Below, piece after piece: positions 1,238 through 42,650 of a DNA stretch of 42,650 nucleotides. Source of the DNA: a virus; the IMG/VR virus record IMGVR_UViG_3300008107_000527, positions 1 through 42,650 of that record. One strand, written 5' to 3'. The number at the start of each line of letters is the position of its first letter. The stretch's first letter is position 1. Below the pieces are notes generated by a model that saw only the letters and a program-made list of their open reading frames with translations, was not told where the DNA came from and did no database searches. Position numbers and translations under genes: made by a program.

Positions 1238-1251
1238 TTAGTTATGGTAGA

Positions 1252-15106: not shown

Positions 15107-15128
15107 AGGGGCGTCCCGCGGAGTAGAT

Positions 15129-21592: not shown

Positions 21593-22578
21593 ACTGCCAC
21601 TTCAGCCTTAATTGTTGGGTGGCTGCTGTAACCAACCAGCTGAATGTCATCAAAATTGAAACTGAAAAGGTCTGTCTTTGCAAGATTCAACGTGACATAC
21701 GGAGATGTGAATGGAGCCCGTGTCAACTGTAGCTTGGCCTGGTCTATGTGGTTTTGGTATAGATGGAGGTCACCATAGGTGTGGATAAACTCACCAGGCA
21801 CCATGTCCACACAGTGTGCCATCATCTGAAGGAGCAGAGCGTAGCTGGCGATATTGAATGGCACACCCAGGAAGAGATCACAGCTGCGCTGGTACAGCAA
21901 GCAGTTGAGCTTGCGTCGACCATCTGAGAGCACCTCTGTGTTGAAGTGAAACAGCACATGGCATGGTGGCAGGGCACAGTGATCCACCCAGTAGGGATGC
22001 CAAGCTGAGACGATCATGCGTCTATCATCTGGATTGGTCTTGAGTTTGCCAACCACCTTCTTCAGCTGGTCAACGGTGTCAAGAGCATCAAATCCATTGG
22101 CTGATGCGATGGTCTCGTAGTCGTTGTAGAAGGGAAAAGCCCGCCACATGCCACCGTAGGTGCCCATGCCTAGGTCACCCCAACGATTCGCAAAGTCTGA
22201 GGAATTTTTGATTTCCTTGACAAAGTTAGGCTGAGAAAGTTTTTGCACTGGTACCTTGATCAAGGTACCAGCTCTTCCCTCAATATCAAACTCAGGGGTT
22301 TTTAAGTAACGCTGGTAGGCCCAGTCATCCCAGATGTGGACGTCATTATCCACCAGGTACTTGATGTTGGTGCTGCCACTGATGAACCAGAGCAGCTCAT
22401 GAATGATGCCTTTGAAAAAGACCTTCTTGGTGGTCAGCAAGGGAAATCCCTCAGCCAAATCAAACCTGGCTTGGGCTCCAAAGACACCAATGGTGTCCAC
22501 GCCTGTCCGATTTTTCTTGGGCTTTCCCTCCTGTAGGACCTTCCTAAGGAGACCCAAGTAGGTCTCGTCATGGATCAT
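21589..22578 (-). CDS. thyA: Thymidylate synthase (329 aa)
   Basis: It makes dTMP from dUMP and methylene-tetrahydrofolate. The catalytic cysteine is C206 in ALPPCHVLF; further hallmarks are the N-terminal RTGVDTIGVFG, ELLWFISGSTNIKYL, the dUMP-binding LYQRSCDLFLGVPFNIASYA and HTYGDLHLYQNH. About 45 residues are inserted between HIWDDWAYQR and WGDLGMGTYGGMW, absent in E. coli ThyA, and the usual P-V-Y-G-K-Q-W-R appears as GTYGGMWRAF. Such a gene supports the high DNA synthesis of a large lytic phage. Confidence 0.97.
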   Translation of the reverse strand: MIHDETYLGLLRKVLQEGKPKKNRTGVDTIGVFGAQARFDLAEGFPLLTTKKVFFKGIIHELLWFISGSTNIKYLVDNDVHIWDDWAYQRYLKTPEFDIEGRAGTLIKVPVQKLSQPNFVKEIKNSSDFANRWGDLGMGTYGGMWRAFPFYNDYETIASANGFDALDTVDQLKKVVGKLKTNPDDRRMIVSAWHPYWVDHCALPPCHVLFHFNTEVLSDGRRKLNCLLYQRSCDLFLGVPFNIASYALLLQMMAHCVDMVPGEFIHTYGDLHLYQNHIDQAKLQLTRAPFTSPYVTLNLAKTDLFSFNFDDIQLVGYSSHPTIKAEVAV

Positions 22579-25937: not shown

Positions 25938-28900
25938 ATGGCAGTTTCTGTACTACCAGAGAATTTTTTCGTTGATCTGTTGCCAACGAAAATCATGGAG
26001 CTGGACACCACTGGGGTGTTGCATGCGACATTGTCTGGATTCCAAGATCGATCAGACGACATTCGTGCTTATGTTTCATTCATAAATAAGCTTATTGACC
26101 CTTTTGCTGGCTATCCCATTGCTGGAACATGCGTGGCCACAAACTACACAGATGAGTTTGGCCTCAATGTAACACGCACCGTTCTGACATTTGACCTGCA
26201 GTCAGATCCAAGCTATCAGGCTTTTGAGGCTGGTAATCTTACCCAGGACGAGGCCAAAGCCTGGATGGGTGAGGTGCTGTCCATTGATCCAACTGTCATT
26301 TCTAGTGTCACCACAACCATAGATCCATTCAAGACTGTCTATGAGCCCATGATTGGCTACCTGGCCAAAAACTTGGGTGTGGTGTTTCCTACATCCAATG
26401 CAGATGACCCTAGAAACGCTGAGTTGGTGGCCAGCCAATTTTCTAGACTTCCCATCAAGGGAACAGCCAAGTCTATTGAGATTGCAGGTCTTATTGCTGG
26501 CTTTGATTCAGTCCACGTCAACCCACTGTGGGGACGTTTGTCGCCAAGAAATCCAGTAGACATTGGTCTTAGTGTAAACAACCAAGATTTTTCAGCGATT
26601 ACCTTGGTTGAACCCACGATTGTTCCAAGTGAGTTTTACGACCCACTAGACTACCGTGACGGACCATTCTACACTTGGTCAACTCGTCTTAGCCTTCTCA
26701 ACAGCACTAACTTTGTCTCACAGGCCAACGGGTCAAATCCGTACCTTCGTTGGAAAATTGGTGGTTTGCTCGCCACTAATTTTAGAGGTGTCTATAACAC
26801 CGCTTCAACCTACAACAAGGGTGATATCGTTGTTTCAACGACTGGACGTAGCTTTCTTGCTCAGACCACCACAACGTCCATACCACCGACTAGCTTTGTA
26901 ACTGCTAATTTTCTGATGCCAGAGATTGACTCGAGTGTGTCAGTCTCTGTTAGCAACTCCTCTTGGATGACAGTTGGTCAGTCTGTTTCAGTCTATGATG
27001 CTGGCACACTAGTTGTAGGTTCGATCAGTGGAACAACGGTAAACCTCATCAATAAGGGAGCAAATAACAATCTTGCCCCTGGAATAACTGTCAATGCTGG
27101 CAGTGTTATCGTTTCACAAGATTCTTCCATCTGGCTTGAGATAGAGGCCCCTTCTGCTAGCATCTATACTCTCTCAGGTGGTCTTCCAAATGTTGAGTCC
27201 TCAGCTGATCTATCATCCACAATAAAGGTTGAAGGTCTAGCTGAAGGCGAATCCTTCAATGGATTGCAGGTTGTTGTCGAAAATGTCAACAATGTCATCT
27301 CAACGATCGAAACCCTGTCAACTGACCCATCGACTGTTGTTGTCACAACACTTCAGCCTCATGGTCTGACCACAGGTTCATATGTTTTCATCAGCAACGT
27401 ATCACCATTTGATTATGTTGGTCTTTATACTATAACTGTAACGGCGTCTAACAAGTTCACATATAGTCTTCCGTCTAACATTTATGTTGCTGGCGTGGCT
27501 GCAGATGGAATCGTACCATACTATAGTAATGGTGATTTTGAAGTCACCATTTTTGATCGGTTGTCAAGCATCAAATATAGGACTAGCTACTACAACTTGG
27601 TGTTGACTGTTAATGAGTCAACGATTCAAGCCAGATCTGTTCCAGTAAAGCCTAATCCTGATGTAATAAAAGGTGTCAATGAGGGTTCACTAACTGCTGT
27701 ACCACCCTACTTTCCATTTAGTGGTACAACCGAGGTTGAAGGAAATACACCCCAAGTCAACACAGCATGGTTAAGTACTCTTGCCGCTGAGACTGATTCC
27801 ATACTCAATTCTGTAAAACCTGCTACTCGATACGTTCGTAGTTTTAGCACTGGCGTTCTCTACGAGGATCAAGTTGGATATGCTGAGTACGCCAACCAAA
27901 CTCTTATCTTTAGTGCAACTTCACCACTTTCTGGTACCATAACGGGCCCAATCTATCCGCGCACGGCCAGAGTCACAATTGTACGTACGCCATCTATTAC
28001 ACAGTTTTTTAGAGTAGTGTCTTTTGGTGTTGATTCGCCCACTATCACAATTAGTCCTGAACTATTGTTGACATTCAACGCAATTGTGGGGACTCAATAC
28101 AGGATTGACTCAAAAGACAGCTTATTCGACCCTTGGTATCCAGCATCACCAGTATTTATTGCCACTTCATCCGTAGTATATTACCAACTTGGAGTCTATG
28201 AGGCGGCTGAATTGGTTGGTCAATCAGATGAGAATGACCCAGATCAAGTTTCATTCTCTACAACAGCTACGTTCGGTGTAGTAACTGTAGACCTCAACTA
28301 CTATTCTGGAGTATTCAGTGGAACACGACCTGCGCAATTTCCTCCTAGCGATTCTGTAATCGCCAATTGGGTTCTCACAGACACCGGCACTATTCGAACT
28401 GAACCCACAATTGTACAAAAGCAAGCGGGCACACTTGGATTCTTGCCTAGAGCTGAGGACCAGTTTGGTTATTCGTCTGGCACTGCTGAGTTTGGCAGTC
28501 GTCCAACTCAATACCCTGATGTCAACGAGTGGACAAGGCCACTGGAGCGTGAAGTTCTTGACAGAGACCTTGAGATTGTTTACGGAAACGAGGAAAAATT
28601 CCCTGGAAAATTCATAGCAAGTGCTGATTCAAACGACGGCGTTACGTACGGCCTCTTCCTTGTTCCTGGAATTTTCCCATACCGTTTTAGGTTCAGCGAG
28701 TTAGTGGGCAAAAACCCACTTCAGTCCTTGGCTTACAGTGGAAACAGCTTGTACTATGTGGGAATACGATATGGCCAAGTCATGGCCTGTCCTGAGCGCA
28801 CATTTTCGCAGTCCATGCAATCTGGACTCAGTGCTTGGATTCCATTTAATGCCCATCCTGATGATAATCTTCAGATTAACTCAGTGTACCCAACTCTGGG

Positions 28901-31900
28901 TGTCCTAACAACCACTGGTCTTGTTCCTGAGGACAGAGTGTGGAATAACATTCGTGGCTGGATAACCCACTGTCATGGTCTTACATCATCATTGTCTGTA
29001 GATCCTCTTCTCGACGAGCTCAGCTTCTCATTTTGGATTGATCCACAAAACAGTGCAACTCTAACAACCATCCTGACTCTGGGACCAATCCAGATCAAGA
29101 TGGCTAGCACTTCAAGCTTACAGGTTTTCTATGGTGGATCGCTCGAGGCCACCCTGTCCATTTCTGGTTTCTCGTATATCAGTGTATGCCAAAAATCAGG
29201 AGCACTTGTTGTAGGTGTTAATGGATCCACAGCCTCATACGCTGTAACGCCCACAACCACGCCTTTCTACGAGTTGACATTCAGCTCTGACTCTAGCAAC
29301 AGCTATTACATCCAGGATTTCAAGCTGTGGTCTGTCTTTAAGACTTCATCAGAGATTGCTAGCTATTACCAACCAACGATTGTACCAACCACAATTGCTT
29401 CACTTCCAACGCCTATTGAGGTTTCTACCACAGGCGATCGTTGGTTCCTCAAGGTATTGTCAAGTGGTTTTGTTACAACTGGACTTCAGCCCGAATCTAA
29501 GTTGGTAGAGGTCAGTGATCAGTACAACTCAACAACTGGTGGAACAACTGTTGAGACAAGTCAGGGTACTATCACTCAGTATCCTGGAAATCTTTTGCCT
29601 GTTGCAAACTATGATATACAAGGCCGATTCATTGCTGACTCTGGCCGAAATCTTGTTGGAATTCCAGGTGGAACTGTCCCAACAACTCGTAAACTAGGCG
29701 AGGCTTTTCTGCCAACTAGTGCCATCAATCGTGCTCCAGCATCGCCAACTACTGGACTTCCCAGCGGCATAAACCCTGAATGGTTGAATGACACTTCAAC
29801 AGGTTACATTCGAGTGGTTTCTGCACCATTTTCAAGCACTGGTGGTGTTGTTAGCACACAGTCCACTGGAACTGTATCACCATGGCCGAATCCAGCCTAC
29901 AATACAAACCCTCTTGTTGACAGGATTTGGATTCAGGGTGATAGTGGGACCATTTACCAGTTGGGCGTTGGTGGCTATGAGCTGAGCCCAACATTCAATG
30001 TGGCTGCTATAGACCCCAATGAGATGGGTGAGTGTCCGTCTGGAGCAGTGACCATCCTTACAAATGGTTCAAATAAACTCTCTGTAAATTCATCGAATGT
30101 TGTTTACGCCACTGGCACAGTAGACACAACCACGCCTCGTACCTATCTCTATCGTCACAGCTACCTAGTCTACACGTTTAGTGCAAGTGAGGGTTGGATA
30201 CCCACTGAATCGTCGTCACTTTACGAAGGTAATCCGTCTTTATATTCGACAGGCCAGTTGATGTGGTCTTCAACTGCTGGTGCTTCTACTTTGACTCCTG
30301 GTCATTATAGAATTAAGATCACAGCCTACAATCACGGACGTGTTGCCAGCACATTCAAAGGTTTTGACGTTGAAGTCACCATTGGACAGAATGTAACTTT
30401 CCCGCTGGTTCTTTCACCCAACTCAACTGAAGAGGAAACATACTATGACTTCTATGTTAGTGAGACGATTGTTGCTCCATGGCTTGTACAGATTTATTGG
30501 GGTGGTATTGTTGATGATCCTACTAGAGGCATTACCTATCAGTTGGTTGTCACTGGCATCGAGTTGGACAGACTTAAAACCCAGGTTTACAGGGTTGGTC
30601 CAGGTACCTCACTAGTAGAGATTAGCACGACAGCTTCAGGTACAACTCCTGTCCAAGATCTTACGCCTGGTGGTTGGATGGCTGAAATCTCCAACACTGG
30701 CACTATTGGTGAGTGGGCACATGAGGCGAATGTTCGCCCAAATGTAGGAGGCATTGAACAACCTTACACACTGTCTGAACTGTTGACCATGTCGACTGAC
30801 GAGAAAGTCAGTCGAGTTATGCTTAGCAATGACTACGCAGGTCAGACTGTTGTACCAGATCCAGCGTCACCCACACCTCCTTCAGTGGTCTCACAATCTC
30901 AAACTCTTTCACCCAGTACGTCACCCATTCAAGTGGGCTACGGATTAGGTATTGACGTTGTGGCCACCAACACTGTAAATTACTTGTGGTATTTCTGGGA
31001 TAATTCAGTTGAGGTAACATCTGAAGGCACAATACAGAAAACAGTAAATCAAGGTGGAAATCTGGTGTGGACCTGTGTGGTTGCTGATGAGTGGGGCCAG
31101 TCTGATTCAACTACTGGCACCATTTCTGTTAATGCACCACCTGTCATTCGCTCGGCTTCTTTGTCGAATAATGACTTACCTCCGATTTACAGCACAACTC
31201 TTACTACTTTAGTTTCTGATCCGGATTCATCATCGCCCATTACAGTTTGGCTTGATGGCGAAACACCCGTGACGGTATCCACCTTGGACAGTGGAACCAC
31301 CCAAGGTACTGCTACATTTACTTTTAATGTTAGCACCAGTTCCACCAAAGTTCTTCATGCAGTTGATTCCAATGGAGGAACTACTCTTCTGGACATTGAC
31401 ATTCGAGCCTTAGCCTATAAGCCCATAGTCGCTGCCGTCATCGCTGAACCGAGAACCCAACGTATTGGCACAGTCCCAATACGTTTTACATGCCGCGTTA
31501 CTGATCCCAATGGAGGAGGCACACCAACGTTTGCTTGGGATTTCCTGACTTCTAATGGTTGGGCTGAGGCCGATTTTAGTGGTGTTACTGGATTTAGCTC
31601 AATAACCGGTGGCTATACTAGCGCTGGTTTGTCCCAAAGTTTGGGCGGTGGATCCTATCAAAATAACGTTCTGGTTCCGTCCATTCCAAATCAGACCGCA
31701 GGTTTCAAACTTGTCAGACTAACGATTACACCCACGATTGGCACTGCTCAAGTGTTTTATGGTTCAGTCAACTTAATTGAGAACCATACTCCAACTATAG
31801 ATCGTTTCGATATTGTCTCCGAGGGACCTCTTGAAGCTGGTGAACCTGTAACGATTCTAGCCGTGGCAACCGACGTTGACAACGACATCCTGTCATACGC

Positions 31901-32612
31901 GTGGGTTATGAGCAATGTGCAGGACCTTAACCCACAGTACAAGACCAACCCAATAACAGTAACTCCTAATACCCAAGTGTTGTCTGGAAGTCTTACAGTT
32001 AGTGATCCTTATGGACTATCAGCCACTGCCAGCATACCTCCAGTGCTAATTGCAAGCCGAACAGTTGTTGATGGCACCGTGGGTGTGCCTCTAACATATG
32101 TTGCTCGCGCAATGTCAGCGACAACGGGCACTTTCACTTGGGGAATTATCCCTTCAGGTCTTACTCAAATCGACGGAACCATTCTTGGCACTCCTTTGGT
32201 TGAAGGAATTACTAACACAACGCTGTCTGTGGCTTCAACAAGTGGAATTGACACACGCGCCTTTACTTGGAGAATTGCCACAGCTGTCATACCGCCACTC
32301 TCTCCAACAAACCTTATTGTCAATGGCGATGGCACAAACCCACGCTACACCACTGGCCAAAATCTTACGATTCAGTGGACTGTAACCACAGATGGTGGTG
32401 CGTTGCCATCATCCATCATCGAGCTTTGCAAGTTTGATGGAACAGTCATTAAGACTATTGAGATTCCAACTGGCGCGAATGTCTACACAGTAACCTCAAA
32501 CGACATTCTCACCTCATTTGGCTCATATCAAGACATTCTTGTAAAGGTATACTTGACCAGAAATACAGCCAAGTCTCAGTTCCCGGCTCAAACCATCGTT
32601 ACATTCGCCTGA
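25938..32612 (+). CDS. Giant multidomain tail/baseplate protein (2224 aa)
   Basis: The N-terminus (FFVDLLPTKIMELD, then SDDIRAYVSFINKLIDP) looks like a baseplate-attachment domain. Then come many beta domains. About 324-391 (FLMPEIDSSVSVSVS, SWMTVGQSVSV) is a module shared with the fiber at 9573. Near 475-530, PHGLTTGSYVFISNV is a small barrel motif common in phage tails. About 963-1149 (FSFWIDPQN, SYYIQDFKLWSVF) resembles a LamG/concanavalin-like sugar-binding domain. From about 1650 to the end there are Ig/cadherin/PKD-like repeats (VTDPNGGGTPTFAWDF, ATDVDNDILSYAWVM). No enzyme motif or membrane segment is seen. It opens the fiber block and is probably a long host-contact or tail-tip protein. 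Confidence 0.75.
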   Translation: MAVSVLPENFFVDLLPTKIMELDTTGVLHATLSGFQDRSDDIRAYVSFINKLIDPFAGYPIAGTCVATNYTDEFGLNVTRTVLTFDLQSDPSYQAFEAGNLTQDEAKAWMGEVLSIDPTVISSVTTTIDPFKTVYEPMIGYLAKNLGVVFPTSNADDPRNAELVASQFSRLPIKGTAKSIEIAGLIAGFDSVHVNPLWGRLSPRNPVDIGLSVNNQDFSAITLVEPTIVPSEFYDPLDYRDGPFYTWSTRLSLLNSTNFVSQANGSNPYLRWKIGGLLATNFRGVYNTASTYNKGDIVVSTTGRSFLAQTTTTSIPPTSFVTANFLMPEIDSSVSVSVSNSSWMTVGQSVSVYDAGTLVVGSISGTTVNLINKGANNNLAPGITVNAGSVIVSQDSSIWLEIEAPSASIYTLSGGLPNVESSADLSSTIKVEGLAEGESFNGLQVVVENVNNVISTIETLSTDPSTVVVTTLQPHGLTTGSYVFISNVSPFDYVGLYTITVTASNKFTYSLPSNIYVAGVAADGIVPYYSNGDFEVTIFDRLSSIKYRTSYYNLVLTVNESTIQARSVPVKPNPDVIKGVNEGSLTAVPPYFPFSGTTEVEGNTPQVNTAWLSTLAAETDSILNSVKPATRYVRSFSTGVLYEDQVGYAEYANQTLIFSATSPLSGTITGPIYPRTARVTIVRTPSITQFFRVVSFGVDSPTITISPELLLTFNAIVGTQYRIDSKDSLFDPWYPASPVFIATSSVVYYQLGVYEAAELVGQSDENDPDQVSFSTTATFGVVTVDLNYYSGVFSGTRPAQFPPSDSVIANWVLTDTGTIRTEPTIVQKQAGTLGFLPRAEDQFGYSSGTAEFGSRPTQYPDVNEWTRPLEREVLDRDLEIVYGNEEKFPGKFIASADSNDGVTYGLFLVPGIFPYRFRFSELVGKNPLQSLAYSGNSLYYVGIRYGQVMACPERTFSQSMQSGLSAWIPFNAHPDDNLQINSVYPTLGVLTTTGLVPEDRVWNNIRGWITHCHGLTSSLSVDPLLDELSFSFWIDPQNSATLTTILTLGPIQIKMASTSSLQVFYGGSLEATLSISGFSYISVCQKSGALVVGVNGSTASYAVTPTTTPFYELTFSSDSSNSYYIQDFKLWSVFKTSSEIASYYQPTIVPTTIASLPTPIEVSTTGDRWFLKVLSSGFVTTGLQPESKLVEVSDQYNSTTGGTTVETSQGTITQYPGNLLPVANYDIQGRFIADSGRNLVGIPGGTVPTTRKLGEAFLPTSAINRAPASPTTGLPSGINPEWLNDTSTGYIRVVSAPFSSTGGVVSTQSTGTVSPWPNPAYNTNPLVDRIWIQGDSGTIYQLGVGGYELSPTFNVAAIDPNEMGECPSGAVTILTNGSNKLSVNSSNVVYATGTVDTTTPRTYLYRHSYLVYTFSASEGWIPTESSSLYEGNPSLYSTGQLMWSSTAGASTLTPGHYRIKITAYNHGRVASTFKGFDVEVTIGQNVTFPLVLSPNSTEEETYYDFYVSETIVAPWLVQIYWGGIVDDPTRGITYQLVVTGIELDRLKTQVYRVGPGTSLVEISTTASGTTPVQDLTPGGWMAEISNTGTIGEWAHEANVRPNVGGIEQPYTLSELLTMSTDEKVSRVMLSNDYAGQTVVPDPASPTPPSVVSQSQTLSPSTSPIQVGYGLGIDVVATNTVNYLWYFWDNSVEVTSEGTIQKTVNQGGNLVWTCVVADEWGQSDSTTGTISVNAPPVIRSASLSNNDLPPIYSTTLTTLVSDPDSSSPITVWLDGETPVTVSTLDSGTTQGTATFTFNVSTSSTKVLHAVDSNGGTTLLDIDIRALAYKPIVAAVIAEPRTQRIGTVPIRFTCRVTDPNGGGTPTFAWDFLTSNGWAEADFSGVTGFSSITGGYTSAGLSQSLGGGSYQNNVLVPSIPNQTAGFKLVRLTITPTIGTAQVFYGSVNLIENHTPTIDRFDIVSEGPLEAGEPVTILAVATDVDNDILSYAWVMSNVQDLNPQYKTNPITVTPNTQVLSGSLTVSDPYGLSATASIPPVLIASRTVVDGTVGVPLTYVARAMSATTGTFTWGIIPSGLTQIDGTILGTPLVEGITNTTLSVASTSGIDTRAFTWRIATAVIPPLSPTNLIVNGDGTNPRYTTGQNLTIQWTVTTDGGALPSSIIELCKFDGTVIKTIEIPTGANVYTVTSNDILTSFGSYQDILVKVYLTRNTAKSQFPAQTIVTFA

Positions 32613-32616
32613 TCCT

Positions 32617-33366
32617 ATGGCTCTGCCCACAGCACCATTCTATCCCAGTTCACTGCTGGACCCAAGAAATGCGGCTGATCTGAAGCAGCTTCTCTGGAAA
32701 AATTTCTTCATCATCAATGAGGGTCCAGGTTTTAGTCGACAACCCACAAGAGTTGGAGGCGAACCTAACACAGTGGTTGGGCCTCCAACTTTTGGTCAGC
32801 ATTATGTAAATGCCGTTTGGGTTGATGGCATTCGTGGCTTGTGGTACTGTGTCGCATCTGGCATACCTGGAACTTGGGCACAAGCTGAATTACCAGTTGT
32901 CACGGCTTTCCCAACTACAGCTCAAGTGGGCTATCGTGTCATACGCAGTGATGAGGGCTACATCACTTACTACTGGGACGGCACAAACTGGGTAAACATT
33001 GGCGGTGGCGGTGGTGGCACTGTAACTGGTGCTCAGAATCTTGGCACAGGAGCTGATGGCCAAGGTGTCTATTCTTCTTTGTCTGGAACAACACTGCTCT
33101 TCAGACGCATCAAGGCTGGTGAGAATATCTCACTGGTATCAAATGCAAATAGCATTGAGGTTGCAGTACAGCATGACCCACATTTTATCGGCACAACCAC
33201 TGTCGATGTCTTAAAGATCATAGCCCAATCCACACCCACAACTCCTGTTGATGATTCATTTGTTTCGTGGGTGTATACCTCGGGCACAAGTCCAAACAAG
33301 ACAATTATTTGGAAAGCCAAGAGCCGTGACGGAGGAGAAGTTATTCTTTCTTCTGTCATTGTCTAG
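32617..33366 (+). CDS. Tail fiber-like protein (249 aa)
   Basis: The N-terminal part (about 1-135) contains LWYCVASGIPGTWAQAEL and YYWDGTNWVNIGG, a pattern often seen in phage fiber attachment domains. A Gly hinge (GGGGGGTVTGAQNLGTG) follows. Then GQGVYSSLSGTTLLFRRIKA and ENISLVSNANSIEV form a module widespread in phage tail fibers. The C-terminal 60 residues are a small beta domain. It begins four bases after the giant gene. Confidence 0.7.
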   Translation: MALPTAPFYPSSLLDPRNAADLKQLLWKNFFIINEGPGFSRQPTRVGGEPNTVVGPPTFGQHYVNAVWVDGIRGLWYCVASGIPGTWAQAELPVVTAFPTTAQVGYRVIRSDEGYITYYWDGTNWVNIGGGGGGTVTGAQNLGTGADGQGVYSSLSGTTLLFRRIKAGENISLVSNANSIEVAVQHDPHFIGTTTVDVLKIIAQSTPTTPVDDSFVSWVYTSGTSPNKTIIWKAKSRDGGEVILSSVIV

Positions 33367-33368
33367 GC

Positions 33369-35054
33369 ATGTTTGATGTAATCATTCCCACAAAGTGTAT
33401 TGAGCCGGCTTTAACCAGGCTGTGCGAGTCCATCCAACTCTACACCCGGTTAGGGGATGGATCACTGAAATTCACAGCCGTGGGCCCAACACAGCCACAG
33501 ATACCATGGCTGAAGTGGATAAAGCATGAGGGAAGTGTGGCCTCATCCATAAATGAGGCTGTGAGTCAAACCACTGAGCCTTACATGATCATACTGCACG
33601 ATGATGCAGTCTTATTGCCACAACGTCAATCTCGATGGATTGAGCAACTCAAAAATTTGATGTCTGATCCAATGGTGGCCGTTGGCGGTCCCATGAAGAT
33701 CAATAAGAATGGCGTTGATTTTGTCAACTTCTTTTGTGCAGCCATATCAAGAAGTGCTTGGTCAAAGATTGGTCCGTTGTCTCTAGACTTTCCCTATCAT
33801 GACTATGACGTTGAGTGGTGTTCACGAGCTCAAAAAGCCGGATACCAAATAAAGTCTGTTGGTGAGCTGTCAAGTCACAACGGATACTTTACAGGTGACT
33901 TTCAAATTTACCACGCTGGTGGACACACTCTTAGAAATTCGCCAAGTCCTCAACCCGAGCCAACCAAAGTTGAGCTGTCCTCTCCTGGGATTGTTTACTC
34001 ATTAGCTCCACATTCTCACCCAACTGTTCCTGTCACAGCACACATTTCTACTCGTGGAAGATACAAGACAACACTGCCTCTGGCCATACAATCAATAGCT
34101 CTTCAAAGCCTGGTTCCAAAACGTTTGATCATCTTTGATGATGGTTGTGACGGCCAATTCTTCAAAGAAACCATCTATGTGCATCTCTTCAACATGCTTC
34201 AAAGCAAAGGTTGCCATGTTGATGTAGTAAATGGTGAGGGAAAAGGCCAAGTACTAAACCACCAAAAGGCCATTGACATGTCTAACACTCCATTTATTTG
34301 GAGAGTGGACGATGACAATTCAGCAGAACCCAACGTTCTAGAGAAATTACTGGCCAACATGGGTGATGGCGTTGGCGCGGTGGCTCCATGTGTTCATTTC
34401 CCATGGATCACACCCCCACCACTGGACATTTCTGGCTCAGGCCTTATTGGCGATGTGAAGTGCAGAAACAACGTTCAGTGGTTCAAGTTCTCGGGTCTAC
34501 AGCCAGTTGAACATCTTCACAACACCTTTCTATTCAGAAAAGAAGCCGCAAGCCACGGCTACCCAAATAACTTGTCTGTGGTTGGTCATCGAGAGGAAAC
34601 CATATTTTCTCACGAGATGGTCCTCAGAGGTTGGAAACTTGTGGTGGTTGGTGATGCCATAACTTGGCACCTAAGAGATCCTGATGGTGGCATCCGGCTA
34701 TTCAGAGACACATCACTGTGGCAGTCTGACGAAGCTAAGTTTCATGAGTGGGCCACAGCCAGAAACGTAAAGTTCAATGACTACTGGTTGATTGTCTTAG
34801 ACAACGGCCTAGGAGATCACTTGGCCTTTGTCCATGTATGGCCTGAGATTAAAGAGAAAGCTAAACAAAAGGGACAGAAAGTTCTTTTAGCCGTCTGCTA
34901 CCCAGAGGTTTTCAAAAATGAACCTGTCATTAGCATTGCTGATGCCATGAAACTTGAAAAAGACCTTGGAAAACACAACGTCTACAACTTCATGATACAA
35001 AACAACTGGAAAAAATCTCTTGTTGATGGTTTCAGAGCAATGTACGGCCTATGA
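33369..35054 (+). CDS. Three-part glycosyltransferase: two GT2 domains plus a GT9-like N-terminal half (561 aa)
   Basis: Residues 1-195 form a GT-A domain (MFDVIIPTKCIEPA, metal site ILHDDAVLL at 76-84, YHDYDVEWCSRAQKAG near the catalytic acid). Residues 218-445 form a second, PVTAHISTRGRYKTTLPLAI with DDD site WRVDDDNSAEPN at 311-322. Residues 472-561 open WLIVLDNGLGDHLAFVHVWP, like the G-x-G-D turn of GT9 enzymes, and end where that Rossmann half would end. The matching C-terminal half is the next gene. It lies directly upstream of two Gly-X-Ser fibers, which are plausible acceptors. ATGA overlap with the next gene. Confidence 0.75.
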   Translation: MFDVIIPTKCIEPALTRLCESIQLYTRLGDGSLKFTAVGPTQPQIPWLKWIKHEGSVASSINEAVSQTTEPYMIILHDDAVLLPQRQSRWIEQLKNLMSDPMVAVGGPMKINKNGVDFVNFFCAAISRSAWSKIGPLSLDFPYHDYDVEWCSRAQKAGYQIKSVGELSSHNGYFTGDFQIYHAGGHTLRNSPSPQPEPTKVELSSPGIVYSLAPHSHPTVPVTAHISTRGRYKTTLPLAIQSIALQSLVPKRLIIFDDGCDGQFFKETIYVHLFNMLQSKGCHVDVVNGEGKGQVLNHQKAIDMSNTPFIWRVDDDNSAEPNVLEKLLANMGDGVGAVAPCVHFPWITPPPLDISGSGLIGDVKCRNNVQWFKFSGLQPVEHLHNTFLFRKEAASHGYPNNLSVVGHREETIFSHEMVLRGWKLVVVGDAITWHLRDPDGGIRLFRDTSLWQSDEAKFHEWATARNVKFNDYWLIVLDNGLGDHLAFVHVWPEIKEKAKQKGQKVLLAVCYPEVFKNEPVISIADAMKLEKDLGKHNVYNFMIQNNWKKSLVDGFRAMYGL

Positions 35055-35512
35055 TCATACTTTCTCCTTATTCCTCTAAAGTGAGAAATGGTGGCAACAA
35101 TGCCAAGAATTACCCACATTGGCAAGAGGTGATAAACAACCTCGTCTCTGTTGGCCATAATGTAGTCCAAGTGGGTGTTGTGGGCGAAAACCTTTTCAAG
35201 AATACAAAGCAGGCATTTGGACTCTCATTGCATGATTTGACTGAAATCATTTCGGACGATTCTTGCAAGACGTGGATGTCTGTGGACAACTTCTTTCCTC
35301 ATCTGTGTTCACACACCCAAAAGCCGGGTGTCGTCGTGTGGTCAAGATCAGACCCAAACATTTTCGGTTACCCACAAAACACAAATCTGCTCAAGGACAG
35401 ATCCTATCTCAGACCAGACCAGTTTGGTTTTTGGAACGACTGTTCGTTTGTGGAGGATGCTTTCGTCAACCCAACTGTCGTCACAACCGCGGTACTCTCA
35501 AAGTGTAATTAG
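35051..35512 (+). CDS. GT9-like C-terminal half (153 aa)
   Basis: ILSPYSSKVRNGGNNAKNYP, then a helix and HNVVQVGVVGE, resemble the sugar-nucleotide-binding half of GT9 enzymes. WMSVDNFFPHLCSHTQKPG followed by VVVWSRSDPNIFG corresponds to the donor-site segment seen in the full enzyme at 13979 (DSMVVHIAGSMG, LWGPVRPG). It has no N-terminal half of its own; that half ends the previous protein. The two probably act together as a split enzyme. Confidence 0.65.
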   Translation: MIILSPYSSKVRNGGNNAKNYPHWQEVINNLVSVGHNVVQVGVVGENLFKNTKQAFGLSLHDLTEIISDDSCKTWMSVDNFFPHLCSHTQKPGVVVWSRSDPNIFGYPQNTNLLKDRSYLRPDQFGFWNDCSFVEDAFVNPTVVTTAVLSKCN

Positions 35513-35515
35513 CCT

Positions 35516-37108
35516 GTGGCAGTTCAGCATTACGCGGGTGACACATTCGTAGGACTATCAACTGACGTTAAGCCTCTAAACGTTATCGATGGGGCGCGAT
35601 TTTACGAGTCTGACCCTCCTTACCTCGTATGGCTTAAAGTTTCTGGAGTATGGGTTAATATCGGAACTTCCGGAGCTGGCATATCTGGCTACTCAGGTTA
35701 TTCCGGCTTCTCCGGTTTTTCTGGTGAAAGTACTACATACATTGACGTAAATCAAGTATCCCACGGTTTTGTCATTGGTGATGTTTTACGTTTTGATGGG
35801 ACAAACTATGTTAAGGCTCTTGCTGATACTCCAGAAAATGCTGAAGTCGTTGGCATTGTAAGCCAAGTCATTGACAGCGACAATTTCAAACTTTTAACCG
35901 AGGGTGAAATTGACGGTTTGTCTGGTCTGTTACCAGGATACACTTACTTTCTAGACCTTTTTACTCCTGGTACATATAGTACCACGGATCCAAACGCTTA
36001 TGGCGCGGTGTCTAAGCCGCTGATGGATGCCCTAAGCACCACCAAAGCTTACTTCCACAACTGGCGTGGTGTTATTGTAGAGAATGGCCTCGGTGACTCT
36101 GGCTACTCTGGCTACTCTGGCCGTAGTGGCTTTTCTGGCACTAGTGGCACAAGTGGTACGTCTGGCTTTTCTGGTACCAGTGGCTACTCTGGTTTCACTG
36201 GCGTCAGCGGTTATTCTGGCTACTCAGGATATTCTGGCACCAGTGGCTACTCTGGCTACTCTGGCGTAAGCTCCAATCAAACCATTGTTGTAAACCAACC
36301 ATCACATGGTTTTATTGTTGGTGACTTGATAAAATATGATGGCAGCCTATACATGCTCGCCCAAGCGGATACCCCAGAAAATGCTGAGGTTGTTGGCATT
36401 GTGTACCAAGTCATCGACTCTGATAACTTTGTCTACCTCACTGAGGGTGAGATAACAACCCTGTCTGGGCTTACACCTGGTGCTGTATACTTTCTAGATC
36501 TTTATTCCCCTGGTGCTTATTCGACAAGTGAAACAAATGTTGTTGGCACTGTTTCTAAGCCTGTGTTGGTAGCCACATCAGCCACGACAGCTTTCTTCCA
36601 CAATTGGCGTGGTATCATTGTTGAAAACGGTCTTGGTGACTCTGGCTACTCTGGCTACTCCGGCGTTAGTGGCTTCTCCGGCACTAGCGGCACTTCTGGT
36701 TTTAGTGGATCAGGCTTAGTCATACGTCAACCCATAAGTGCCTCAAGTACGACTACATCTTTCTACTTTAACTCAAACGTATACACAGGTGACAAGTCAA
36801 TCTCTCCGAATCCATACTCAGCTTTTATCGTCAATTTGCCATCTGCCAGCCAGATCAACATATGCTTGAGACAAGAGGGAGTTGTGGGTGGCAACAGCAC
36901 TATCATACAGGTATTTAAGTCAGCTAATGGCGATCCATTGGGCAGTACTAGTGCGATAACACCTGAAACAGTTCAGACTGTTGGAGAAAACACTATGGCT
37001 GTCTACTCGTTCAGTGGCTTAACGATAAACCAATATGACGCCCTTTTCTTACGATGTATTCCGGCTACCAGCGGCAGCAGTTATTATGGCGTGGTAACTA
37101 TCGAATAA
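35516..37108 (+). CDS. Collagen-like tail fiber with duplicated domain (530 aa)
   Basis: It starts at GTG 35516 (MAVQHYAGDTFVGL), three bases after the previous stop. Short Gly-X-Ser/Thr stretches (about residues 55-72, 193-252 and 374-400) alternate with two copies of a 115-residue domain (VNQVSHGFVIGDVLRFDG and VNQPSHGFIVGDLIKYDG; both end WRG-IVENGLGD). A C-terminal globular domain of about 125 residues (VIRQPISASSTTTSFYF) is a likely receptor-binding or trimerising head. Collagen-like fibers form trimers. The long Ser-rich stretches are possible sites of glycosylation by the upstream enzymes. Confidence 0.8.
   Translation: MAVQHYAGDTFVGLSTDVKPLNVIDGARFYESDPPYLVWLKVSGVWVNIGTSGAGISGYSGYSGFSGFSGESTTYIDVNQVSHGFVIGDVLRFDGTNYVKALADTPENAEVVGIVSQVIDSDNFKLLTEGEIDGLSGLLPGYTYFLDLFTPGTYSTTDPNAYGAVSKPLMDALSTTKAYFHNWRGVIVENGLGDSGYSGYSGRSGFSGTSGTSGTSGFSGTSGYSGFTGVSGYSGYSGYSGTSGYSGYSGVSSNQTIVVNQPSHGFIVGDLIKYDGSLYMLAQADTPENAEVVGIVYQVIDSDNFVYLTEGEITTLSGLTPGAVYFLDLYSPGAYSTSETNVVGTVSKPVLVATSATTAFFHNWRGIIVENGLGDSGYSGYSGVSGFSGTSGTSGFSGSGLVIRQPISASSTTTSFYFNSNVYTGDKSISPNPYSAFIVNLPSASQINICLRQEGVVGGNSTIIQVFKSANGDPLGSTSAITPETVQTVGENTMAVYSFSGLTINQYDALFLRCIPATSGSSYYGVVTIE
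35678..35731 (+). repeat. Gly-X-Ser repeat, first array of the 530-aa fiber
   Basis: Six triplets ([18 protein letters not shown]) are coded here. They use the same GGC/GGT and TCT/TCC codons as the later arrays. Confidence 0.85.
35747..36091 (+). repeat. Duplicated 115-residue domain, copy 1
   Basis: Matches copy 2 at 36290-36634 at the same length (345 bases). Both contain ADTPENAEVVGIV, QVIDSDNF and FHNWRG. The copies differ at many third positions, so the duplication is not recent. Confidence 0.85.
36092..36271 (+). repeat. Gly-X-Ser/Thr repeat, second array of the 530-aa fiber
   Basis: About 20 triplets (GYSGYSGRSGFSG and so on) join the two copies of the duplicated domain. Confidence 0.85.
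36290..36634 (+). repeat. Duplicated 115-residue domain, copy 2
   Basis: Second copy of the domain at 35747-36091. A third Gly-X-Ser array (36635-36715) follows it, so the linker-plus-domain unit was duplicated as a whole. Confidence 0.85.
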
Positions 37109-37114
37109 CAACCT

Positions 37115-40100
37115 ATGCCTCCTGTCAATTTCTCAGCAGTAAGAGTAAGAGCCAGCTCAGGGTACTCTGGCATTAGTGGTTATTCCGGATACTCTGGCTT
37201 CACTGGCGTCAGTGGTTATTCCGGATATTCCGGTTACTCTGGTTCTGGCGTGAGTGGCTACTCTGGCTTCTCAGGAACCAGCGGTGTCAGTGGCTACTCT
37301 GGTTACTCCGGCTTTACAGGCGTCAGTGGTTACAGTGGCTACTCTGGCGACTCTGGCTACTCTGGCGTCAGTGGCTTCTCAGGTTATTCTGGTTTCACTG
37401 GTGTCAGTGGCTACTCTGGCTACAGTGGCTACTCAGGTGACTCTGGTTATAGTGGCTACTCTGGTGACTCTGGTTACAGTGGCTTCACCGGCGTCAGTGG
37501 CTACTCTGGCTACTCCGGATATTCTGGTGACTCTGGCTACTCTGGCTTTACGGGTGTCAGTGGCTACTCTGGCTACAGTGGTTACTCGGGTGATTCTGGT
37601 TACTCTGGCACCAGTGGCTTCTCAGGTTATTCTGGCTTTACCGGAGTCAGTGGCTACTCTGGCTACAGTGGCTACTCTGGTGACTCTGGTTACAGTGGCT
37701 TCACCGGCGTCAGTGGCTACTCTGGTGACTCTGGTTACAGTGGCTTCACCGGCGTCAGTGGCTACTCTGGTTACTCCGGATATTCTGGTGACTCTGGCTA
37801 CTCTGGCTACTCTGGTTTCACTGGCGTCAGTGGCTACTCTGGTTACAGTGGTTACAGTGGTGACTCTGGCTACTCTGGCTTCACAGGTGTCAGTGGCTAT
37901 AGTGGCTACTCGGGTGACTCCGGCTTCTCTGGTACCAGTGGCTACTCTGGCTTTACCGGCGTCAGTGGCTACTCTGGCTACAGTGGCTACTCAGGTGACT
38001 CTGGTTATTCTGGCTTTTCAGGCACATCTGGATTTAGTGGCTATTCAGGCTATTCTGGGACCTCTGGCTTTACCGGCGTCAGTGGGTACTCTGGAACCAG
38101 TGGCTTTACAGGCTACTCTGGCTTCACTGGTGTCAGTGGCTACTCCGGATATTCAGGTGATTCTGGTTTCTCTGGCACCAGTGGCTACTCTGGCTTTACA
38201 GGTGTCAGTGGCTACTCTGGGTATTCAGGTGACTCCGGCTTCTCTGGCACCAGCGGTACATCAGGCACCAGTGGCTACTCTGGTTTCACTGGCGTCAGTG
38301 GTTACTCCGGCTACTCTGGTGACTCTGGTTACAGTGGCTTCACCGGCGTCAGTGGCTACTCTGGCTACTCAGGTTATTCTGGTGACTCTGGCCACTCAGG
38401 AACTTCTGGCACCAGTGGCTACTCTGGTTTTACTGGCGTCAGTGGCTACTCTGGCTATAGTGGCTACTCTGGTGACTCTGGCTACTCTGGCTTTACTGGC
38501 GTCAGTGGCTACAGCGGCTACTCAGGTGACTCTGGCTACTCTGGCTTCACTGGTGTCAGTGGCTACTCTGGCTATAGTGGCCACTCTGGTGACTCTGGCT
38601 ACTCTGGCACCAGTGGCTATTCTGGTTACACCGGTGTCAGTGGCTACTCAGGCTATTCTGGATTTTCTGGTGTCAGTGGCACCTCTGGTACTAGTGGCTA
38701 CTCTGGCTTCACTGGTGTCAGTGGCTACTCAGGCTATTCTGGAACTAGTGGCTTTACAGGCTACTCTGGCTTCACTGGTGTCAGTGGTTATTCAGGTTAT
38801 TCGGGTGAATCCGGCTTCTCTGGCACCAGCGGTACATCAGGCACTAGCGGCTACTCTGGCTTTACCGGCGTCAGTGGCTACTCCGGATATTCAGGTGACT
38901 CCGGCACCTCTGGCACCAGTGGTTACTCTGGCTTCACTGGCGTCAGTGGCTACTCTGGCTACTCTGGCTACTCTGGTTTTAGTGGTACCTCTGGCACCAG
39001 TGGTTACTCTGGCTTCACTGGCGTCAGTGGCTACTCTGGCTACTCTGGAGATTCTGGTTTTAGTGGTACCTCTGGTACTAGTGGCTACTCTGGCTTCACT
39101 GGCGTCAGTGGCTACTCTGGCTATTCGGGCACATCAGGAACCTCTGGCACCAGTGGCTACTCTGGTTTTACTGGCGTCAGTGGCTACTCTGGTTATTCTG
39201 GCACCAGCGGTACATCAGGAACCAGTGGCACCTCTGGCTACTCTGGCACCAGTGGTTACTCTGGCTTCTCTGGAGTTTCAGGATTTAGCGGTTACTCTGG
39301 ATACTCTGGATTACCTGGCAATAGCAGTGGTCTTGTCTACTACCTAAACTCATCAATCAACGAGTCGCCTTACAAGCAACTAGGGTTAACTGGTGATGGT
39401 TTGCCAGAAAGTGCTGTAACTGCTACTATACCAGGAAATTCTATAGCCACAGTAGAGAGCTATAAGACTGTTGCTGGAAGTCCTGGTGTGACCACAATTC
39501 CTGCAGGATTCTGGTCCTTTTATCTTCACGTAAGCAAGAGTTCATCCACGTCTCAGCCGATATACGTGTATGTTGAAGTCTACAAGAGAAATGGTGGAGG
39601 TACAGAGACACTGCTTTTCACCACCGACCCAGGTGAGATCACAGCTATTACTTCGGCCATCTCAATGGTTATCACGGACACATATGTCCCAGGATTCCCA
39701 TTAAACATAACGGATACTCTTGTCGCGAAAGTCATTGCGGACAATCAAAATTCCAGCCCACATGGCGTAACTCTATACTCAGAAGGTACCACCCACTACT
39801 CATATACCGTAACTAGCTTGGGTGTGCCAAGTATCAGTGGTTACTCTGGTTATTCTGGCTTCACGGGCACTAGCGGTTACTCAGGCTATTCTGGCACTTC
39901 AGGTTTTACTGGTACCAGTGGCTACTCTGGCTTCACAGGTGTCAGTGGCTACTCCGGTTACTCTGGCATCTCTGGCTTTACTGGCGCCTCTGGCACCAGT
40001 GGCTACTCTGGCTTCACAGGTGTCAGTGGCTACTCTGGTTATTCTGGAACAAGTGGCACCTCTGGCTTCTCAGGAACCTCTGGCTTTAGCGGCACCTCTG

Positions 40101-42650
40101 GCTTCACGGGTTCCTCAGGCACTTCTGGCACATCAGGAACCTCTGGCACCAGTGGCTACTCTGGCTTCACTGGCGTCAGTGGCTACTCAGGTTACTCTGG
40201 TACTTCTGGCACCTCAGGAACTTCTGGCACCAGTGGCTACTCTGGCTTCACCGGCGTCAGTGGTTATTCCGGCTACTCTGGAACCAGTGGAACGTCTGGC
40301 ACCTCTGGCTTCACTGGAGCCTCTGGCACCTCTGGCTTCTCAGGCACTTCAGGAACCTCTGGCTTTAGCGGCACCTCTGGCTTCTCAGGTACCAGTGGCT
40401 ACTCTGGCTTAACCGGTGTCAGTGGCTACTCAGGTTACTCTGGCATCTCTGGCTTTACTGGGGCCTCTGGTGTCAGTGGCTACTCTGGCTTCTCTGGTGT
40501 CAGTGGCTACTCTGGCTACTCAGGAACCTCTGGCTTTAGCGGCACCTCTGGCTTCTCAGGCACCTCTGGCTTTAGTGGCACCTCTGGCTTCTCAGGAACC
40601 TCTGGTGTCTCTGGCACCAGTGGCTACTCTGGATATTCTGGTAGTGGCACCTCTGGCTTTAGCGGCACCTCTGGCTTTAGTGGCACCTCTGGCTTCTCAG
40701 GCACCTCTGGCTTTAGTGGCACTTCTGGCGCCAGTGGCACCAGCGGCTTCTCTGGAACGTCTGGCACCAGTGGCGCCTCTGGCACCAGTGGCTACTCTGG
40801 TTTTACTGGCGTCAGTGGCTACTCTGGCTACTCTGGCATCTCTGGCTTTACTGGCGCCTCTGGTACTAGTGGCTACTCTGGCTTCACTGGTGTCAGTGGC
40901 TACTCTGGTTATTCTGGCACCTCTGGCTTTACGGGTGCTTCTGGTACCTCTGGCTTCTCCGGCACTTCTGGCGCCAGTGGCACCTCTGGTTTTAGTGGCA
41001 CTTCTGGCACCAGTGGCTACTCTGGTTTTACTGGCGTCAGTGGCTACTCTGGCTACTCAGGAACCTCTGGTTTTAGTGGCACTTCTGGCACTAGTGGCTA
41101 CTCTGGCTTCACTGGTGTCAGTGGCTACTCTGGCTATTCTGGTACAAGTGGAACGTCTGGCTTCTCAGGCACTTCAGGAACCTCTGGCTTTAGCGGCACC
41201 TCTGGCTTCACTGGAGCTTCTGGCACTAGTGGTTTCACTGGCGTCAGTGGCTACTCTGGGTATTCTGGCGTTAAAGGTGCCACGGGCCCTATTGGCCCTA
41301 TCGGCCCTATCGGTGCCCAAGGTCTTCAAGGTCCTATTGGACCTATTGGACCTCAAGGTGTCTCCGGCACTAGTGGCTACTCTGGGTATTCTGGTACCAG
41401 CGGAACCTCTGGCTTCTCTGGTACTTCTGGCACCTCTGGCACCTCTGGCACCAGCGGTTTCAGTGGTACTAGTGGCTTCTCTGGCATCTCTGGCTTTACT
41501 GGCGCCTCTGGCACCAGTGGCTACTCTGGCTTCACTGGCGTCAGTGGCTACTCTGGCTATTCTGGCGTCTCTGGCTTCACTGGAGCCTCTGGCACCAGTG
41601 GCTACTCTGGCTTTACAGGTGTCAGTGGCTACTCTGGCTACTCAGGCACCTCTGGCTTCACTGGAGCCTCTGGCACCTCTGGCTTCACTGGAGCCTCTGG
41701 CACCTCTGGCTTCTCTGGTACTTCTGGCACCTCTGGCTTCTCCGGCACTTCTGGCGCCAGTGGCACCTCCGGCTTTACTGGCACTTCAGGTACCTCTGGC
41801 TTTACAGGCGTCAGTGGCTACTCGGGTTATTCTGGAGTCAAAGGCGCTACAGGTCCCATAGGTCCTATCGGCCCTATTGGCGCCCAAGGTCTTCAAGGTC
41901 CAATTGGTCCTATTGGTCCCATTGGACCTCAAGGTGCCTCTGGCACCAGTGGCTTCTCTGGTACTTCTGGCACCTCTGGATTTACAGGCGCCTCTGGTAC
42001 CAGTGGCTACTCTGGCTTCACTGGTGTCAGTGGTTATTCTGGCTATTCCGGCACCTCAGGAACTAGCGGTACTTCTGGCACCAGTGGCTACTCTGGCTTC
42101 ACTGGCATCAGTGGCTACTCTGGTTATTCTGGTACTTCTGGCACCTCTGGCTTCACTGGCGCCTCTGGAACCTCTGGTTTCACTGGTGCTAGTGGCACCT
42201 CTGGCTTCACTGGGGCCTCTGGCACCAGTGGCTTCTCAGGAACATCCGGAACCTCTGGTGTCAAAGGTTCTACTGGTCCTATCGGGCCCATTGGTCCTAC
42301 TGGACTTCAAGGTCCTCAGGGCCCTATCGGTCCTATTGGCCCTATTGGTCCTATCGGCCCTATTGGCCTTCAAGGTCCCATTGGCCCTATTGGCCCTATT
42401 GGTGCCCAAGGCCTTCAAGGTCCAATTGGCCCTATTGGCCTTCAAGGTCCTATCGGCCCTATTGGTCCTATTGGCGCCCAAGGCATATCTGGCGTCAGTG
42501 GCTACTCTGGGTATTCTGGTGTTAAAGGTGCTACAGGACCCATCGGTCCTATCGGCCCTATTGGCCTTCAAGGTCCCACTGGCCCTATCGGCCCTATCGG
42601 CCTTCAAGGCCCTACGGGTCCCATTGGCCCTATCGGCCTTCAAGGACCCA
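37115..42650 (+). CDS. Giant collagen-like fiber protein, runs off window end (at least 1845 aa)
   Basis: ATG 37115 ([18 protein letters not shown]) opens a frame that stays open to the last base. Residues about 16-733 are almost unbroken Gly-X-Ser/Thr triplets (units such as [18 protein letters not shown]). Residues about 734-907 are a beta-rich globular domain ([43 protein letters not shown]). Then collagen-like triplets resume, now with [10 protein letters not shown] units and blocks of true collagen character ([15 protein letters not shown] at 41267-41358, 41834-41936, 42257-42481 and from 42518). The protein is presumably a long trimeric tail fiber, with its C-terminal head beyond the window. 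Confidence 0.85.
37160..39318 (+). repeat. First long Gly-X-Ser/Thr array (about 2.2 kb)
   Basis: Tandem 9-base units (GGC TAC TCT and variants) in higher-order blocks of roughly 45-63 bases, e.g. [15 protein letters not shown]. The array is imperfect, with many silent changes. All four other reading frames look artificially open here. Confidence 0.95.
39319..39838 (+). other. Globular insert within the giant fiber gene
   Basis: About 173 codons without Gly triplets interrupt the array. The coded text ([47 protein letters not shown]) looks like a jelly-roll beta domain. It could be a knob along the fiber or a trimerisation domain. Confidence 0.7.
39839..42650 (+). repeat. Second long collagen-like array (at least 2.8 kb)
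   Basis: Tandem Gly-X-Ser/Thr codons again, dominated by GTS, GFS, GFT, GAS and GYS triplets, with four interspersed Gly-Pro-Ile/Gln blocks from 41267 on. The array continues past the window end, so its true length is unknown. Confidence 0.95.

Follow-up and report, generated by a model that had tools for sequence, protein, structure and literature searches.

The 42,650-nucleotide window analysed here (positions 1 to 42,650 of IMG/VR virus record IMGVR_UViG_3300008107_000527) carries a pair of glycosyltransferase (GT) genes that quite probably forms a phage-specific cassette for glycosylating the adjacent Gly-X-Ser/Thr fiber. This reading is drawn from sequence and structure models. Many unrelated phages have the cassette next to a fiber of the same type, a pattern suggesting that these phages add sugars to their own collagen-like tail fibers. 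In the window, from 33369 to 37108 and onward, a gene for two GT2 domains and the N-terminal half of a GT9 enzyme (GT9N) is followed by a gene for the C-terminal half (GT9C), directly 5' of two collagen-like fibers:

25938..32612, + strand: 2224-aa giant protein in a tail-module context, probably structural (2225-aa orthologs in loci L002 and L003)
32617..33366, + strand: conserved 249-aa protein, probably of the virion or baseplate, 2 nt from the fusion gene (same-place ortholog in L002 and L003)
33369..35054, + strand: GT2a-GT2b-GT9 N-half fusion protein, 561 aa (PF00535, E = 2.5e-11)
35051..35512, + strand: GT9 C-terminal half, 153 aa, donor-binding domain (family match to PF01075, WaaC alignment, model)
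35516..37108, + strand: collagen-like fiber 1, 530 aa, proposed substrate (PF01391, E = 3.4e-10; triplet counts; conserved in L002)
37115..42650, + strand: collagen-like fiber 2, at least 1845 aa, proposed main substrate (triplet counts)

Cassette genes and their neighbours are spaced by 2-6 nt. The start of the GT9C gene overlaps the end of the fusion gene by ATGA, fiber 1 starts 3 nt past the preceding stop and fiber 2 starts 6 nt past. Reading frames, profiles and gaps confirm the arrangement described in the initial annotation, with both GT9 halves and the GT2 domains tightly packed on one strand 5' of two fibers.

The fusion protein is GT2-like at residues 1-190, has a second GT2 domain at about 220-460 with DDD at 314-316, and resembles the N-terminal part of GT9 at about 470-561. 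The Pfam match to PF00535 comes from the middle domain and is shared by 19/19 family members; the profile is of the GT-A type with a DxD-type motif, D314, D315 and D316 being invariant, as are H407, R408, E409 and E410. The N-terminal part matches Pfam more weakly (PF13712, E = 1.3e-3), but orthologs from other phages are clearly identified as GT2 (E = 1e-15 to 1e-17). The 90-residue GT9N part gave no significant profile match, and its G480-x-G482-D483-H484 motif is invariant in 19/19 members. The protein model (pLDDT 78.6) matches tandem GT-A structures, while a PDB search with the GT2 profile gave no match. Foldseek matches of the 561-aa model to LH3/ColGalT and mimivirus R699 were rejected as a sign of collagen specificity since, with TM ~0.3 and rmsd ~20, they indicate only tandem GT-A domains.

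For the GT9 C-half, the 153-aa protein of the window has no Pfam match itself; Glyco_transf_9 (PF01075) matches 25/28 members of its family, the best at 3.3e-9. All Foldseek matches of its model (pLDDT 94) at E ≤ 0.001 have the GT9 fold (TibC, WaaC, WaaF and 3tov), with TibC giving the best E-value. In the WaaC alignment, K19, D79 and H84 correspond to K192, D261 and H266, which we take to be donor-site residues, and E46 lies near E222. Whereas a classical GT9 holds both domains in one chain, the two are separate chains in all cassette members seen: no GT9N-GT9C single-chain fusion occurs among 119 GT9N and 136 GT9C frames, and GT9N is directly upstream of GT9C in 100 of the latter. A two-chain GT9 of this small size would represent a novel enzyme architecture and might help in making glycosylated collagen-like materials.

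The initial annotation had also listed further modifying enzymes in the window. Pfam identifies a GT9 at 13979-15106 (PF01075, 5e-8) and an FkbM methyltransferase at 15129-15791 (PF05050, 9e-13), while no GT family in Pfam matches the putative GT-A at 20933-21592, which is thus unconfirmed. All three lie outside the conserved cassette, and nothing found in the analysis ties them to the fibers.

Together the two fibers contain 586 Gly-X-Y triplets, and in 529 the Y residue is Ser/Thr. Fiber 1 has 35 triplets (34 with Ser/Thr at Y), with Gly-X-Ser blocks of 6, 20 and 9 triplets between two globular-domain copies. Fiber 2, which extends past the window end and is therefore longer than 1845 aa, has 551 (495 with Ser/Thr at Y), including uninterrupted runs of 230, 90 and 221, long repeats of the PF01391 kind. 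Since runs of five or more Gly-X-Ser/Thr triplets occur in 0/120 random viral loci (1.0 Mb), a chance origin is excluded. Serine at Y uses both unconnected codon classes (291 TCN and 132 AGY, with 196 class switches between adjacent triplets) and is therefore kept at the protein level. Proline in fiber 2 is found at X in 39/551 and at Y in 1/551 triplets, within Gly-Pro-Ile type blocks, and the fiber is thus not proline-rich at X and Y in the way associated with collagen helix stability. Its later Gly-Pro-Ile/Gly-Leu-Gln blocks keep the register of the Gly-X-Ser part, which is only suggestive of a triple helix.

The best reading of these genes is that the cassette O-glycosylates, and often methylates, the phage's own fibers at their Ser-rich triplets. 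One GT2 domain would add the first sugar to Ser/Thr at Y of Gly-X-Ser/Thr triplets, and the second GT2 domain and the two-chain GT9, made of the tail of the 33369-35054 product (candidate catalytic Asp483) and the 35051-35512 product (donor-binding residues), would elongate the glycan. Otherwise, the first sugar may be attached to Ser by the GT9 itself, in a TibC-like manner. A SAM methyltransferase, which belongs to the cassette set in many relatives, would cap the glycan there. The substrate would be the neighbouring collagen-like fiber, a virion component poor in proline, and the sugar donors would come from the host. A role of the sugar in helix stabilisation or shielding is plausible; sugar attachment, the identity of the sugar and the purposes named in the initial annotation (stiffening, replacing proline, hiding) are what we infer from sequence and models.

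Glycosylation of collagen repeats is already a known kind of modification, as in BclA/SgtA and mimivirus collagen. In Clostridioides difficile, the gene immediately upstream of bclA3 is sgtA, and SgtA glycosylates Thr of the collagen repeats, and Ser in test peptides (PMC7157674). As in the window, a GT gene adjoins a collagen-like gene and hydroxyl residues of the triplets are the O-glycosylation acceptors, but there a single O-GlcNAc transferase acts on Gly-Pro-Thr repeats of a spore surface protein (PMC7157674), whereas here a GT2/GT9/methyltransferase set is paired with a phage fiber of almost proline-free Gly-aromatic/aliphatic-Ser triplets. TibC, which has the GT9 fold, heptosylates protein serines (PMC4358343); the TibC/AAH autotransporter heptosyltransferases share the GT9-like GT-B fold and modify a repetitive surface protein at many Ser. 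They are single-chain, iron-bound dodecamers acting on a beta-helix adhesin (PMC4358343), whereas the GT-B halves of the cassette are on separate genes, with the N-half fused to GT2. Mimivirus, a collagen-encoding virus, has the collagen-glycosylating enzymes L230 and R699 (PMC9546862). These, however, are LH/GLT25D-type enzymes acting on (galactosyl)hydroxylysine (PMC9546862), while for the phage Ser/Thr acceptors are proposed and no lysyl hydroxylase was seen. In mycobacteriophages Che8 and Rita, phage GTs are tied to covalent virion-protein glycans (cited in PMC11256854), but these are on the capsid protein, and no link to collagen-like fibers is described there.

The initial annotation had set co-occurrence with Gly-X-Ser fibers in relatives as a check, and it was found in the forward and the reverse direction and in comparison with three controls, although the control loci were not matched for host group. 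IMG/VR loci were selected solely by (Gly-Tyr-Ser)4 DNA, and 103 with a real tract were obtained among the matches listed. Cassette orthologs are present in 31/103 of these Gly-X-Ser loci, compared with 0/120 Gly-Pro-X collagen loci, 0/120 random loci and 0/17 false-pattern loci (Fisher p = 2e-12). Many of the 103 loci are related, forming 72 clusters; after dereplication the link holds at 18/72 vs 0/117 clusters (p = 6e-9). The value of 31 comes from clean models, with three loci matching via methyltransferase or other GT2 regions excluded; the same regions in an early HMM had made L603, a non-Ser locus, seem to carry the cassette. About 70% of the Gly-X-Ser loci among the matches listed have no exact cassette in the fetched DNA: the fiber may be independent of it, other GTs may serve, or the fragments may be cut. 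A relative of this GT2 is the commonest non-collagen neighbour of the tracts (44/103 loci among the matches listed). In a generic collagen sample the direction is the same and the numbers thin, with the cassette in 2/16 Ser-class and 0/97 other loci (clean models). In reverse, the tract was found in 42/80 loci picked by GT9C, and in 20/23 of those of at least 13 kb (among the matches listed). For records of at least 20 kb picked solely by the GT9 half, a Gly-X-Ser/Thr tract is present in 17/20 vs 1/28 random records (p = 4e-9), and 3/20 show none. Where a fetched locus contains both, tract and cassette adjoin each other, with a median gap of 40 nt, and share a strand in 40/42.

GTs that phages encode close to their tail fibers are usually assigned a role in DNA or LPS modification. 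The enzymes could modify the host envelope (O-antigen/outer core) against superinfection, their proximity to fibers reflecting a shared host-recognition island. This has been published for the GTs in the tail-fiber island of pelagimyophages, aquatic T4-like phages in which collagen repeats were noted, but where the GTs were taken as host O-chain modifiers with no tie to fiber sequence type (PMC7029224); it is also one of two published readings for freshwater actinophages (PMC10202952). The GT9 family typically comprises LPS core enzymes, and in jumbo record L004 the cassette sits among other GT genes with no adjoining fiber. We nevertheless consider envelope modification unlikely. It would not account for the bias toward Gly-X-Ser over Gly-Pro-X fibers (31/103 vs 0/120, among the matches listed) or for the spacing of 7-40 nt. 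Sugar-nucleotide, flippase and polymerase genes do not recur next to the cassette, which lacks the sugar-nucleotide/export genes and the relation to host loci of a phage LPS-modification cluster, and heptose isomerase PF13580 is in 0/29 records. A phage-encoded heptose supply was dismissed, as the PHROG 'phosphoheptose isomerase' match in L309 is a HAD/PNKP-type phosphatase match. In addition, the GT9 half was detected in only 5 contigs, two of them with Gly-X-Ser tracts, when 84,980 prokaryote species were scanned, which sets it apart from genes taken over from the LPS loci of hosts.

Glycosylation of hypermodified phage DNA is hardly credible. DNA-acting phage GTs are known, there is a weak Foldseek match to phage GT 9iqz and the window has a thymidylate synthase, but this retains the Asn of its PFNIASY motif, typical of dUMP enzymes and not of dCMP hydroxymethylases, and linkage to one fiber type would be left unexplained. 

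A dedicated fiber cassette, if real, would alter the reading of tail-fiber GTs for many aquatic phages, would explain the possible stability of long proline-free collagen-like rods, and would bear on host recognition and on recognition of virions. More tentatively, and with slightly less than even confidence, it may represent a widespread virus-only O-glycosylation in aquatic phages, in which a two-chain GT9, GT2 and methyltransferase act densely on hundreds of serines of proline-free collagen-like fibers, with sugar in place of proline keeping the fiber together or making it harder. In that case, a Gly-X-Ser tract would be a marker for glycosylation of a phage fiber.

The archetype [Gly-X-Ser fiber][GT2-MTase][GT2-GT9N][GT9C] has gaps of 7-21 nt after the fiber in L063, L306 and L365, where the cassette is downstream of the fiber, while it is upstream in the window. 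A T4-like portal, sheath and tube are present in L306 and the window, and endolysin neighbours in L063 and L365. Cassette and fiber might be one mobile tail module of aquatic phages with no enzyme-substrate relation, since tail-gene modules do move jointly and many sampled loci are related (103 in 72 clusters). Such hitchhiking appears quite improbable: the pairing recurs in three settings (myovirus, endolysin-linked and P19250A), the cassette can precede or follow the fiber, several gene fusions exist, the proteins form 22 clusters at 80% identity, and fibers and enzymes each occur alone and are still linked.

Among 50,697 INPHARED phage records, only isolate P19250A has the enzyme pair. Venkman (MT375522), with no annotated GT and no Gly-X-Ser tract, was considered as a paired-loss relative and discarded as too distant, no common J-like protein being detectable. 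In P19250A, whose setting includes a J-like protein, gp23 is a 1201-aa Gly-X-Ser fiber, gp24 a methyltransferase, and gp25 and gp26 the GT pair; this pairing and the co-occurrence above partly support the interpretation, made in the initial annotation, that the enzymes act on Gly-X-Ser fibers.

The window is a fragment of a T4-like myophage (a 42,650-base IMG/VR record), in which the following proteins give the structural setting.

200-1237, gp5-like protein
6603-8576, portal, gp20-like
8573-9244, baseplate, gp25-like
25938-32612, plus strand, giant protein of 2224 aa, with near-identical length in two other viral records (L002 and L003)

From 25938 to the window end, the main genes are all on the plus strand, in the order 2224-aa protein, 249-aa protein, 33369-35054, 35051-35512, fiber 1 (35516-37108) and fiber 2 (37115 to beyond the end). 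The tight same-strand packing of glycosyltransferase (GT) genes upstream of two fibers, described in the initial annotation, was confirmed: the 249-aa gene ends 2 nt before 33369-35054, the two GT genes overlap by 4 nt (ATGA), and fibers 1 and 2 start after gaps of 3 nt and 6 nt, respectively. The 2224-aa protein, whose first 1000 residues gave no Pfam match, is probably a baseplate or tail component of very large size.

In the 33369-35054 product, the GT2 domain matched by PF00535 (2.5e-11) is clear, the GT2 ahead of it is weaker (PF13712, 1.3e-3), and the chain closes with a tail of 90 residues in which G-x-G-D-H is invariant. This tail (GT9N) had no significant match, and its homology to the N-terminal half of GT9 is argued from position, motif and predicted secondary structure. 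The 35051-35512 product is the GT9 C-terminal domain (GT9C), with a PF01075 match in 25 of 28 family members, and WaaC and WaaF were the top matches in a PDB profile search. Its predicted model (pLDDT 94) gave 22 Foldseek matches at E ≤ 0.001, every one GT9-fold (TibC, WaaC, WaaF, 3tov), with the top TM-score (0.73) for WaaF and 3tov and the top E-value for TibC. Conserved catalytic-type residues are D314-D316 and E409-E410 in GT2, D483 in GT9N, and K19, E46, D79 and H84 in GT9C. A GT-B enzyme is split over two adjacent genes and the split is conserved, a GT9N–GT9C fusion being found in none of 119 GT9N and 136 GT9C frames. Apart from the fiber cassette, a full-length GT9 adjoins an FkbM methyltransferase at 13979-15791; among the loci tested, only L245 carries a related GT9.

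The fibers contain 35 (fiber 1) and at least 551 (fiber 2) Gly-X-Y triplets, with Ser or Thr at Y in 529/586 and mostly Tyr, Thr, Phe or Val at X. Near its end, fiber 2 passes, with the register kept, into blocks of Gly-Pro-Ile and Gly-Leu-Gln, as in ordinary collagen, which supports the collagen-like reading. Both TCN and AGY codons are used for Ser, and 196 of 484 neighbouring triplets switch class, indicating that Ser itself is under selection. Among 113 phage Gly-X-Y loci sampled irrespective of X and Y identity, Ser occupies at least half of the Y positions in 16 and a fraction below 0.22 in nearly all others, so Ser-at-Y fibers form a nearly separate class. Far from the GT cassette, a 445-aa baseplate-region protein (9573-10910) also has 11 Gly-X-Ser triplets in a short block at residues 194-226.

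The GT2 and GT9 enzymes would assemble a short glycan on the Ser/Thr residues of the adjacent fiber, and the glycan may be methylated wherever a methyltransferase is present; since no heptose isomerase is encoded, sugar donors would be supplied by the host. Each proposed step has a precedent in known systems: Thr and Ser of collagen triplets are modified by SgtA, whose gene adjoins bclA3 (PMC7157674), and the GT9-fold enzyme TibC heptosylates protein Ser (PMC4358343). Thr glycosylation is described as stabilising collagen (Bann et al. 2000, as cited in PMC3368898), which makes a similar stabilising role plausible for proline-free fibers. No paper linking phage GTs to Gly-X-Ser fibers was found, the subscription literature being mostly out of reach.

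The initial annotation had proposed surveying relatives for GT genes co-occurring with Gly-X-Ser fibers, and co-occurrence was found in both directions. In a scan of IMG/VR for (Gly-Tyr-Ser)4 DNA alone, 103 of the 120 matches listed, which like the other IMG/VR sets are not a random sample, had a real Gly-X-Ser/Thr tract. Among the matches listed, GT9 halves (clean models) were present in 31/103 true-tract loci and in 0/120 Gly-Pro-X collagen, 0/120 arbitrary-14-mer (partly redundant, 73 clusters) and 0/17 spurious-pattern loci (p = 2e-12; 18/72 vs 0/117 after clustering of similar loci); the sets compared may differ in host. Many of the records compared are fragments, and the exact cassette is absent in view from most Gly-X-Ser loci. 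Over whole records, any GT2 domain was found in 28/38 true-tract vs 8/50 Gly-Pro-X records. Collagen aside, the family most often found next to the tracts is the cassette's GT2 family (44 loci), followed by GT9C (27) and then structural proteins.

Conversely, when 80 loci were picked by the GT9C profile alone, a tract was found in 42, and in 20/23 of those of at least 13 kb; among records taken whole and 20 kb or longer, the figures were 17/20 vs 1/28 for random ones. The gap between cassette and tract-bearing frame has a median of 40 nt (≤100 nt in 24/42), and both are on the same strand in 40/42. A genome scan covering 84,980 prokaryote species detected the GT9C family in only 5 contigs, of which at least 2 have Gly-X-Ser tracts, so GT9C looks virus-specific.

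Among 50,697 phage records, the GT pair was found only in isolate P19250A (KX815270), as gp25 and gp26, next to a stand-alone methyltransferase (gp24) and in a genome with a lambda J-like protein. Its gp23 is annotated as a tape measure, but the sequence is instead that of a 1201-aa Gly-X-Ser collagen-like fiber.

The common cassette form is Gly-X-Ser fiber, GT2-methyltransferase (~420 aa), GT2-GT9N (~322 aa) and GT9C (~145 aa); L063, L306 and L365 have 7-21 nt gaps downstream of the fiber, and the order relative to the fiber is variable among loci. In the window, both GT2s are fused and the cassette lacks a methyltransferase, L077 has a methyltransferase-GT2-GT9N fusion, and L309 has GT2, methyltransferase and GT2-GT9N in one fusion. 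L306 lies in a setting of myovirus sheath, tube and portal, and L063 and L365 in one of endolysins. The L063 fiber has a C-terminal Peptidase_S74 chaperone domain, which is typical of phage fibers and spikes.

Directly upstream of the fused GT gene and Gly-X-Ser fiber of L309, a Radical SAM/SPASM-type protein (7023-7754) might be a further fiber-modifying enzyme. In L306, a T4-like record, an extra GT2 and a DXD sugar-binding GT (530-3168) lie just upstream of the Gly-X-Ser fibers. The 373 kb jumbo record L004 carries a GT2-GT2-GT9N plus GT2-methyltransferase-GT9C variant among other GTs and ribonucleotide reductase, with Gly-X-Ser tracts in the same record. Elsewhere in the window, a PA14/GLEYA-domain protein (12238-13359) is a probable carbohydrate-binding virion protein, and the thymidylate synthase (21589-22578) has Asn in PFNIASY and so looks like the ordinary dUMP enzyme, not a base-hydroxymethylating one.
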